A stretch of 64,000 nucleotides of DNA. It comes from Paenibacillus sp. V4I7 (GTDB taxonomy: Bacteria; Bacillota; Bacilli; Paenibacillales; NBRC-103111). The translations under genes were made by a program, and so were the position numbers. The notes beneath the pieces were generated by a model. It was not told where the DNA came from, searched no databases, and saw only the letters and a program-made list of their open reading frames with translations. Positions within the stretch are counted from its first letter, which is position 1, and the number at the start of each line of letters is the position of its first letter. Of this stretch, positions 3,871-44,125 are shown one piece after another. The stretch is from assembly GCF_030817275.1 (NCBI RefSeq), contig NZ_JAUSZD010000002.1, forward strand, positions 3,844,001 to 3,908,000. Reading direction: 5' to 3'.

Positions 3871-3977
3871 CTCCTAAGAGTTTTGCTTTAGCAAAACTGA
3901 CATCGTAAGCATTGGCTGAGTTTTCCGTAGGAAAACTTGCATCGTAAGCATTGGCTGAGTTTTGCTTTAGCAAAACC
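3871..3977 (-). repeat. Shine-Dalgarno-linked hairpin repeat, 2.5 units, before pyrR
   Basis: On the coding strand two 40-bp units are followed by a terminal hairpin. Each unit is a perfect hairpin (TTTTGCTAAAGCAAAA, then TTTTCCTACGGAAAA, then TTTTGCTAAAGCAAAA) plus CTC and a linker containing AGCCAATGCTTACGATG. The last hairpin runs through CTCTT straight into AGGAGG, the ribosome-binding site of pyrR. The repeat begins immediately after the attenuator T-tract, so it is only transcribed when the terminator is read through. Related copies occur before five other genes in the window. Confidence 0.88.
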
Positions 3978-4160
3978 AAAAAACTCCTTGCCATTTGTTG
4001 GCAAGGAGTTACGAGTGCATAAAGATACAGAGCGGGGCATAAGGATGCGCACATCCCCAAGCTTAGTCATACACTGAATCCGCGACCCAGTATATCCCGT
4101 CTTTTCTCATCGACTACCTTGCCAGCCTCTCTGGACTGTTTTTAAAGGTACATATTTGAT
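3970..4160 (-). promoter_or_regulatory. PyrR-dependent attenuator leader of the pyr operon
   Basis: Read on the minus strand, the leader contains CAGTCCAGAGAGGCTG (4138-4123), matching the conserved PyrR-binding anti-antiterminator of Bacillota pyr operons. About 115 nt further on comes a 12-bp perfect stem (4010-3999 with 3993-3982, 5-nt loop) followed by a T-rich tract, a Rho-independent terminator. This arrangement fits termination when PyrR-UMP is bound and read-through when pyrimidines are scarce. Only one attenuator is visible; Bacillus subtilis has three, two of them between genes that here are close together or overlapping. Confidence 0.88.
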
Positions 4161-4167
4161 TAAAGGA

Positions 4168-4196
4168 ATTATCCCACTTTCGACACGATAAGTCAA
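4168..4196 (-). promoter_or_regulatory. SigA-type promoter of the pyr operon
   Basis: On the minus strand a -35 TTGACT (4196-4191) and a -10 GATAAT (4173-4168) are separated by 17 bp. Transcription would begin near 4161, giving a leader of about 300 nt before pyrR that contains the PyrR site and terminator. Confidence 0.75.
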
Positions 4197-4212
4197 TATC
4201 TATTTCATGAAC

Positions 4213-4247
4213 TTGCTTTGAGCTAGCGCTCAGCCATGTGTTATAAT
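4213..4247 (+). promoter_or_regulatory. Possible extended -10 promoter with inverted repeat, upstream of the ABC exporter
   Basis: A perfect TATAAT (4242-4247) preceded by TGT forms an extended -10. No good -35 exists at 17 bp; TTGCTT at 4213 is too far away. An inverted repeat TGAGC-TAGC-GCTCA (4219-4232) occupies the expected -35 region and could be an operator. This is a consensus match only. Confidence 0.4.
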
Positions 4248-4308
4248 TTACATATGAGAAAACCTCTATCGAGGCCATTCAAAGATGAGCGACCGCGTTT
4301 AACGAGGA

Positions 4309-42493: not shown

Positions 42494-42509
42494 ATCGAAT
42501 ACCTGCCCA

Positions 42510-42944
42510 TTACGGTTTAGAAGCTACTTTATTATTTTTGCTACTGCTTGTATTTGATTTTGATTTCTCTGAAGTGACTAAACTTACTTTCTTTTCATCT
42601 CCTATGTTAAACCCAAGCCGTACCGCCTCACCCTTCATACGTTCAGGACTTTGCAGTTTCTCTACTTCTTGCTTCAAAGCGCTGTTCTGAGCTTGCATCT
42701 CACGAATTTCACTTTGCATTTTCAAAATATTGGCATTCATCTGATAAATAGCTGCGTAACGCCAGATAATAACTCCTGCCACAATGACACAAAGGATGAC
42801 AGTGAATAAATAAAGCATTTTCTCTTGTGTAGGTAACGTTTTATTGCGATAAACAACCTTTGTTGTTTCTTTTATCTTCACTTTTGGTGCTGGGGCCGAA
42901 CGTTTTGGATCGAGAGCCAAATTGCCTTGGATGTAAGATGGCAT
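42510..42944 (-). CDS. ftsL: Cell division protein FtsL
   Basis: Small bitopic divisome protein, 144 residues: a basic cytoplasmic region of about 45 residues, one membrane helix (LYLFTVILCVIVAGVIIW), then an extracellular leucine-zipper coiled coil (residues about 68-105). The low-complexity Ser/Lys/Asn tail is variable in the family. Sequence identity alone is weak for FtsL, but the position between rsmH and pbpB is diagnostic. ATG 42944 has GGGAGG. Confidence 0.93.
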   Translation of the reverse strand: MPSYIQGNLALDPKRSAPAPKVKIKETTKVVYRNKTLPTQEKMLYLFTVILCVIVAGVIIWRYAAIYQMNANILKMQSEIREMQAQNSALKQEVEKLQSPERMKGEAVRLGFNIGDEKKVSLVTSEKSKSNTSSSKNNKVASKP

Positions 42945-42964
42945 ATTTTAATTCCTCCCTTGTG

Positions 42965-43915
42965 TCAAAGTTTTTCAGCGATTCGCAGCTTCGCGGATCT
43001 TGCCCTTTGATTGACTTCAAGCTCATGTTCGCTTGGTGAAATTGGTTTTCGTGTGATTAATTTTACAACTCCGGTCTTCTTGCAAACGCAATATGGAAGA
43101 TCCGAAGGACAGGTACATTTTTCAACGTTTTTCACAAAAAATTGTTTACATATGCGATCTTCCAGTGAATGGAAGGTAATGACAGCAACTCTGCCTTGTG
43201 GGGCCAGGCAACGGAGTGATTGCTCCAGTGCTTCTTCAAAAGCTCCTAACTCATCGTTCACCGCGATACGCAGCGCTTGGAAACTTCGCTTCGCTGGGTG
43301 ACCGCCGGTCCTTCTCGCTGCAGCGGGAATCCCCTCCTTGATTAACTCCACCAGCTCACCTGTGGTTTCAATGGGTTGTTTGGTCCGAGCTTCCACAATG
43401 ACGCCTGCGATCCGCCTGGAAAACTTTTCTTCCCCGTACTCAAACAATATTCGCGCAATTTGGTCTGCAGGCCACTCATTTACGATCGTTTTGGCGGTTA
43501 GTTCCGTCGAACGATCCATCCTCATGTCGAGCTCTGCATCATGGTTGTAGCTGAAACCACGATCCGCATCATCAAGTTGTGGAGATGACACACCAAGATC
43601 GAACAGAATCCCATCCACCTGCGGCTTGCCATCACGAAGTGCTCTAGGCTCATTTTGGAGCACCTGCTCCAGCTCTCTGAAATTGCTTTTTACGATTTTT
43701 ACGCGATCCAGGTAGGGCGCTAGCACGGTTTGAGCATTAGCTAAAGCGACATCATCCTGGTCTAGTGCAATCAGTAAGCCATTTGGACCTAATTTAGAGG
43801 CAATCAGGGAACTATGCCCTGCTCCTCCCATCGTACAATCCACGTAAACGCCATCCGGCTTTATATGTAAACCTTCAACAGATTCTTCCTTAAGTACCGT
43901 CACATGATGAAACAC
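42965..43915 (-). CDS. rsmH: 16S rRNA (cytosine(1402)-N(4))-methyltransferase
   Basis: SAM-dependent methylation of C1402 in the ribosomal P site. GTG 43915, seven bases after AGGAGG, gives 316 residues and the expected [15 protein letters not shown] start; the longer frame to 44005 reads through a repeat. SAM motif [14 protein letters not shown], then [26 protein letters not shown] and [13 protein letters not shown] are present. A five-unit repeat separates it from mraZ. Reading order is mraZ-rsmH-ftsL-pbpB. Confidence 0.96.
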
Positions 43916-43922
43916 TTGGTGT

Positions 43923-44125
43923 CCTCCTAAGAGCTTTGCTTTAGCAAAGCTTGCATCGTAAGCATAATCTGAGCTTTGCTTTAGCAAAGCTTGCATCGTA
44001 AGCATAATCTGAGCTTTGCTTTAGCAAAGCTTGCATCGTAAGCATAATCTGAGCTTTGCTTTAGCAAAGCTTGCATCGTAAGCATAATCTGAGCTTTGCT
44101 TTAGCAAAGCTTTCTACGTAAGCCT
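43923..44125 (-). repeat. Shine-Dalgarno-linked hairpin repeat, four perfect 40-bp units plus a degenerate fifth, before rsmH
   Basis: Units start at 43931, 43971, 44011, 44051 and 44091 in plus-strand coordinates. The first four are identical over 40 bp; the fifth diverges after its hairpin. On the coding strand each unit is the hairpin GCTTTGCTAAAGCAAAGC plus a linker with AGATTATGCTTACGATGCAA. The hairpin nearest rsmH runs through TCTT into AGGAGG, its ribosome-binding site. The stem is extended by two G-C pairs compared with the pyrR copy (GCTTT...AAAGC against TTTT...AAAA). Confidence 0.95.

Follow-up and report, generated by a model that had tools for sequence, protein, structure and literature searches.

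Hairpin units precede six unrelated genes

Five genes, pyrR, lspA, divIVA, sigE and rsmH, and a gene for an ABC exporter are spread over the window, the stretch of 64 000 nucleotides analysed here, and each is preceded by hairpin units that end at its Shine-Dalgarno sequence (SD). All six loci were found as the original prediction had described them. The proteins encoded downstream matched the Pfam families Pribosyltran (PyrR), ABC_membrane, Peptidase_A8 (LspA), DivIVA, Sigma70 and MraW (RsmH). The consensus unit, of which variants occur, was TGCTTACGAWG-NN-AGTTTTGC-TAAA-GCAAAACT; at each locus the final unit ran into CTCTTAGGAGG or CGCTAAGGAGG, followed by the start codon. The window held 12 units and two lone hairpins in total, and neighbouring units were spaced at 40 nt in 14 of 28 cases in the genome, the remaining spacings being 36–52 nt. 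The features are given below, with scores from R1, the covariance model described in the next section.

3870..3880, minus strand: SD of pyrR, CTCTTAGGAGG, closing the array (pattern scan)
3879..3911, minus strand: pyrR unit 1 (SD-proximal), linker and hairpin (R1, 57.5 bits)
3919..3950, minus strand: pyrR unit 2 (R1, 45.9 bits)
3959..3976, minus strand: linker-less hairpin, the 5′-most element of the pyrR array (R1 positions 15–32)
3975-4152: PyrR-binding site before pyrR, adjoining the 5′ end of the array (Rfam RF00515)
4626..4657, plus strand: single unit before the ABC exporter gene (R1, 43.6 bits)
4657..4667, plus strand: SD of the ABC exporter gene, CGCTAAGGAGG (pattern scan)
12943..12953, minus strand: SD of lspA, CTCTTAGGAGG (pattern scan)
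12952..12995, minus strand: lspA unit with an inner insertion (R1, 28.5 bits)
reaching 13012, minus strand: linker-like stretch at lspA (pattern scan)
17554..17564, minus strand: SD of divIVA, CGCTAAGGAGG (pattern scan)
17564..17594, minus strand: divIVA unit (R1, 36.9 bits), with a second hairpin, lacking a linker, directly upstream
23059..23069, minus strand: SD of sigE, CTCTTAGGAGG (pattern scan)
23068..23100, minus strand: sigE unit 1 (R1, 49.4 bits)
23108..23140, minus strand: sigE unit 2 (R1, 56.1 bits)
23149..23167, minus strand: lone hairpin, the 5′-most element of the sigE array (R1 positions 15–32, 13.6 bits, E 0.86)
43923..43933, minus strand: SD of rsmH, CTCTTAGGAGG (pattern scan)
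43932..44124, minus strand: rsmH array, five units with a period of 40 (five R1 matches of 47.4–56.0 bits; tandem repeat)

The pyrR hairpin array therefore occupies the interval between the PyrR-binding site and the pyrR SD. At gathering score, Rfam recognized in the window this site and an ordinary T-box leader before ileS (16749-16997) and no family for the units; the rsmH array gave 26 Rfam matches, none of them at gathering score. Upstream of the ABC exporter gene, at 4306-4524, a 37-bp sequence (GGAGAGACTTTGCTCTACGACCAAAGATCCCTATAGC) is repeated in tandem approximately six times, and a hairpin resembling it (AGGGATCTTTTAGC..GCTAAAAGTCTCTC) was seen in rRNA spacers of the relative G019 (L311, L320 and L329). 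These are perhaps members of a second small repeat family.

The units form a genome-wide family in gene orientation

R1 was built from 28 units and comprised 33 positions with eight base pairs; the SD was left out in order to limit circularity, and 13 of the 28 training units came from loci found through the SD pattern (SD letters excluded). In the distinct training rows all 199 pair cells held standard pairs, with double-sided changes at two of the eight pairs. The model gave 160 matches at E ≤ 10 in the 8.54 Mb genome. Matches at E ≤ 0.01 with some linker were retained for analysis, which at this threshold left out a palindromic match on the reverse strand and another that covered the hairpin alone. 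The resulting 119 units made up 90 loci: 65 single, 23 double, one triple and one of five units.

A strict test, comprising a purine-rich SD at most 6 nt from the hairpin, a start codon and an ORF of at least 25 codons, was passed by 83 of the 119 units, and 28 more continued into the next unit, compared with 470 passes at 100 000 random positions in the window (0.47%). Four of the remaining eight had a more distant SD or a long gap between SD and start, three lay in decayed arrays and one, at 3511140, had no SD nearby. The 111 passing or array units abut an SD with its ORF or the next unit and are therefore in gene direction, as had been claimed from the window. Pattern counts pointed the same way: the linker TGCTTACGAWG occurred 69 times and its reversed pattern 12 times, and AAAACTCTTAGGAGG with at most two mismatches occurred 116 times, against 24 in the comparison. 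The statement that every stem pairs was nearly right, all six outer pairs being intact in 88 of 116 units as scored in a fixed register that does not accommodate odd loops. Within the linker, G was conserved in 108/116 units and A in 107/116. These data confirm that the hairpin units are a real repeat family that occurs genome-wide and above chance.

AGGAGG served as the SD at 66 of the 90 element loci, compared with eight of 38 other genes (rough prediction in the window). Among non-coding occurrences in the window, 14 of 15 AGGAGG and 26 of 36 AGGAG were SDs. The genes downstream were varied. Pfam was searched with at most the first 300 residues of 86 of the 88 downstream proteins (two could not be located as single references); 69 of the 86 gave matches, with varied functions, and 17 gave none at E 1e-5. 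No functional theme was evident, and a regulon was rejected on this ground. A same-strand upstream neighbour was present at 70/88 loci and at 35/43 in a rough window background, so operon junctions were not enriched and an operon-junction element was likewise rejected.

Empty and filled orthologous sites

Orthologous sites were compared in 20 kb around ileS from 40 relatives, and in 400–464 kb each from the genomes G000, G003 and G028. At dapD a unit was found in G021 only, reading ..TCAATCTAAAT[CAAGCGGATGCTTACGATGCAAGTTTTGCGCCGCAAAACTCA]AAGGAG, and the site was empty and uninterrupted, with its SD, in the outgroup G034 and in 26 further same-genus genomes, all those whose dapD gene fell within the fetched regions. 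At aat a unit was again present in G021 only, the site being empty in 26 same-genus genomes and two outgroups; here the insertion boundary and the duplicated bases were unclear. G017, which the ileS tree places as sister to G021, carries GCAGAGG at this site instead of GGAG, a weaker SD. Insertion at one start in G028 gave GTCTAAAGG[CTATGCTTACAAAGCC..hairpin..CTCTAAGG]AGAG, where both G000 and G003 read an uninterrupted GTCTAAAGGAGAG, so that the target in G028 is split as TCTAAAGG/AGAG. This inserted unit had no second match within three mismatches in G028, and therefore no near-identical donor is left to see. Conversely, addB was filled in G000 and G003 and empty (GAACAAAGGAG) in G028, and tpiA differed similarly, with a unit in G000 and L273 and an empty site in Paenibacillus sp. 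Soil750 (L199); both differences could be precise losses. The insertions at dapD and aat are the only ones polarized as gains by many empty relatives.

The inserted unit was approximately 42 nt long at dapD, at aat and in G028, and lay directly 5′ of the SD. AAG or AAGG flanked the unit on both sides at all compared sites except aat, and the SD already existed in most relatives lacking the element. A relic of the same kind was enriched genome-wide: AAG stood at positions −7 to −5 of 14 of 55 5′-most units without an upstream remnant (at other offsets mean 1.3, maximum 4; p 4e-11, for an offset first spotted in these very data). Certain junctions within arrays read CTCTAAGGTTAATGC, which is expected if an older copy of the SD remained behind. 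Each donor itself precedes (T)AAGG, and target duplication is for this reason indistinguishable from insertion of an element plus AAGG.

In the three-genome comparison SD contact was seen in 46 of 47 clusters. Nineteen orthologous loci were compared: 12 were common to G000, G003 and G028, three to G000 and G003, and one to G000 and G028 (G003 ortholog absent), one was the G028 insertion, and two had no G003 ortholog and fell below threshold in G000. The number of above-threshold units differed at six of the 12 loci shared by all three, and lspA and one further locus in G028 look like hairpin deletions that left the SD.

These comparisons, which had been proposed as a check, bear out one part of the original prediction. 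Its option of a mobile miniature element inserting at AGGAGG is supported by the empty and filled sites and by the AAG(G) on both sides; as a rule the element does not bring the SD, which most relatives lacking the element already have. The alternative of an amplified spacer was right in a single respect, the difference in unit number from species to species.

Distribution in relatives

R1 matched all 30 same-genus genomes at E ≤ 0.1 (the present one included), with seven to at least 126 matches each, values near 112–126 being lower bounds. At this threshold 49 of 60 genomes matched overall, other families of the order among them, and the one or two matches in several distant relatives (E 0.02–0.07) are likely to be chance. 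Among 299 Bacilli, 27 matched at E ≤ 0.001: the present genome, 24 genomes of f10 (another family of the same order), and two genomes with a single match. One single unit in SD layout, before an apparent ABC transporter gene (L307), was found in a genome of another order of the class (G092, family f38), and was perhaps acquired through horizontal transfer.

The 80 stretches listed of at least 120 matching ones came from Paenibacillus, including among the matches listed alginolyticus, phytorum, chondroitinus, alba, aceris, silvestris and others, and from one Bacilli MAG. The stretches recorded held 147 distinct matches, of which 84 were at an SD, 49 at a next unit, one at 5S rRNA and 13 in other surroundings; by eye, two of these 13 ran into a variant unit, two lay near a start and nine were in different contexts. 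When the best locus per relative was taken (n = 29), 21 were at an SD, four at a unit and two before 5S rRNA, and two were not read. In f10, 30 loci were read in five genomes and the SD layout was found at 21. Eleven of the 30 (L304, L381, L384, L386, L387, L391, L394, L397, L399, L400 and L401) had a hairpin loop of approximately 27–33 nt, and these SD-type units often carry GAAGC, as if capable of holding cargo. Nine (L389, L390, L393, L396, L398, L402, L403, L405 and L406) belonged to a different, longer repeat with the same linker and hairpin, often ACCGCTNTTCGCGGT .. TGCTTACGATGC-AGCTTTCC..GGAAAGCT-TTCAGGCGG .., which lies away from SDs.

A survey of 30 loci in nine genomes addressed 5S rRNA. 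Units stood directly before 5S rRNA, some of them at TTTGG, in G037, G029 and Paenibacillus sp. RC67. Further upstream, a unit was present in two of three G037 operons read and the third was empty, so that presence varies between rRNA operon copies of one genome, and in one G029 operon the unit was reversed. Units in rRNA operon spacers were recorded at L103, L115, L240, L313, L314 and L335, and these spacer copies are not located at AAGGAG. SD contact is therefore not absolute: the claim that the element always touches the ribosome-binding site held closely in the genome from which it was made, and did not hold in every relative, given the 5S and rRNA spacer copies, the copies in other contexts and the longer repeat of f10.

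Age and conservation of individual units

The sigE hairpin was present in all 27 same-genus genomes read. The 5′ side of its inner pairs was GC, CC or TC and was matched in 26 genomes, the stem of G013 being shortened to 5 bp. At divIVA a stem of 7–9 bp was kept in 23 of 27 genomes with a variable loop, two having none and two an altered one. In other genera and families (12 genomes for sigE, 14 for divIVA) a purine-rich SD was found and no unit. The insertions at these two genes are thus old and largely kept; lspA units, by comparison, come and go. Some insertions, at sigE and divIVA, have thus been maintained through most of the genus, and the conservation at sigE together with divIVA stems better kept than their loops asks for more than neutral insertion.

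Stepwise compensatory evolution at sigE was considered and rejected. Inner pairs were swapped between sister species (G005/G010, G024/G009 and G011/G007), and whole-unit exchange explains these swaps because the arrays of sister species hold both unit types. The leader-RNA structure put forward in the original prediction may still play a part: the sigE and divIVA hairpins are conserved, but whole-unit exchange accounts well for the covariation at sigE, and folding showed no gain in SD exposure over leaders without the element.

A miniature element that probably inserts at Shine-Dalgarno sequences

Units that are acquired whole, sit at a constant place in the SD, share one orientation and restore the SD behave as a mobile element with target specificity would. 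We consider it probable that the family consists of miniature (∼38–42 nt), apparently non-autonomous mobile elements that insert at SDs. The unit (NTTATGCTTACGAWGNN, a 7–8 bp hairpin and CTC) would enter an AAGGAG(G) already present, at its AAGG and in the sense of the gene, presumably through an enzyme acting in trans. AAG(G) would then border the unit at either end, and the copy downstream of it would rebuild a working SD. Arrays may lengthen through slippage or as further units enter an SD that already carries one. The inserted unit would become part of the mRNA leader and leave the exposure of the SD much as it was. Later use of units as leader structure is possible, and the hairpin perhaps stabilizes or marks a processed 5′ end, in view of a resemblance to RNase Y sites taken up below. 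Specificity for AGGAGG together with loss from coding DNA would explain most of the SD contact.

No Y1 transposase was found in the present genome. Y1_Tnp (PF01797) was sought in seven genomes and was absent from G000, G003, G016, G021 and G037, with one match in G025 and a partial one in G028; G000, G016 and G021 lack it despite more than 115 R1 matches each, and G021 bears both lineage-specific insertions. Neither a coding copy nor any other autonomous form of the element was noticed in the sequences read, and no half-element was seen among the 30 of 69 linker matches that were read; the protein families searched for a candidate enzyme were Y1_Tnp and RVT_1.

The absence of a Y1 transposase from the present genome also fits an account that dispenses with an enzyme of the element's own, which we regard as possible but unlikely. 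An SD elsewhere would capture a unit flanked by AAG(G) and AAGGAG through template switching or annealing during replication, with the palindrome helping the copying and slippage expanding or deleting units. The AAG(G) bordering new copies at either end, and the hairpin deletions and changes in unit number between near relatives, are as this account expects. Such copying should, however, also move other segments between SDs and into other short homologies; the single unit length across many genomes of the order suggests a dedicated process, and the G028 insertion lacks a close match in its own genome.

It is doubtful that the element is copied via RNA in a SINE-like manner, in which the AAGGAGG of element–SD transcripts would pair with nicked SDs and be reverse-transcribed in place. 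Reverse transcriptase (RVT_1) matches were found in 13 of 15 genomes searched; there were none in G015 (seven R1 matches) or G024 (23), and only partial ones in the copy-rich G016. The proposal survives these gaps, because old copies or fragmented assemblies are possible.

A cis-regulatory RNA whose leader hairpin is selected gene by gene, be it to control translation or to process or stabilize the mRNA, and which spreads as a consequence, appears improbable as the primary cause. It would account for the sigE hairpin with its matched inner pairs and for the conserved G and A of the single-stranded linker, which (GCUUACGA) sits just before the hairpin. In Bacillus subtilis, RNase Y prefers to cleave at G/A dinucleotides in unstructured AU-rich RNA, and at cggR and glnR a downstream hairpin stabilizes the product (PMC11780869). 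The CUUACG/A located 5 nt before the hairpin resembles these sites. What is shared is an unstructured stretch containing GA and, behind it, a hairpin that heads the downstream message; cggR and glnR are single native sites, whereas the hairpin-unit family supplies this layout to approximately 90 genes. GA is not absolutely required, however, since 63% of the putative RNase Y sites in that study lack it (PMC11780869). Against gene-by-gene selection, whole-unit insertions show that dispersal came first, and neither a shared function downstream nor operon enrichment was seen. In 88 folded leaders the probability of an unpaired SD was 0.433 when the element was present, against 0.463 after its deletion (p 0.29) and 0.385 after shuffling it (p 0.003). 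An insulator that exposes the SD was rejected, as there was no gain over deletion.

Insertion anywhere followed by purifying selection that spares harmless copies is very improbable: the rRNA spacer copies suit it, and with a preference for AGGAGG, loss of units from genes alone would yield most of the pattern (14/15 for AGGAGG, 26/36 for AGGAG), but preference-free insertion predicts that many copies would lie in 3′ regions, and in either orientation, and only one of 119 units lacked a nearby SD and all 111 test-passing units were in sense.

Comparison with known repeats and implications

REP sequences and BIMEs consist of palindromic units and linkers and occur in clusters, and REPs are located after genes. 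The hairpin units share this construction and differ in lying at SDs; a REP/RAYT system was ruled out, as the Y1 transposase is missing from the present genome. MITEs are likewise short, hairpin-forming, non-coding and dispersed, with direct repeats of target bases. A duplication of this type is suggested by AAG(G) on both sides (G028 and addB) and by the AAG relic, although donors carry AAGG too. Unlike MITEs, the units are approximately 40 nt long, use the SD itself as their target and regenerate it, and by inspection they have no terminal inverted repeats, the 5′ end NTTATGCTTACG not matching the complement of the 3′ end GAGTTTTGC. The main text of a review of MITEs (PMC10969869) mentions neither Shine-Dalgarno, ribosome binding nor Paenibacillus. 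BOX elements of Streptococcus pneumoniae are also small, with variable tandem middle modules, and are transcribed into stem-loop RNA; they have boxA and boxC ends and are over-represented between convergent genes (PMC3049150). The hairpin units abut SDs in sense orientation and, by inspection, have one unit type and no end modules.

The family was undescribed in the literature searched with all-terms queries, which covered few subscription journals, and this is weak evidence of novelty. What is new here is the empty sites for the hairpin-unit family. Overall, the earlier interpretation is supported as to insertion at SDs and not as to their delivery by the element. Small bacterial repeats are usually thought to be placed where harm is least. 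If the interpretation is correct, a unit that targets SDs, rebuilds them and deposits a hairpin in approximately 90 leaders would couple genome mobility to translation and mRNA decay, and near relatives offer natural pairs of one gene with and without the unit for studying the effects of leader hairpins.
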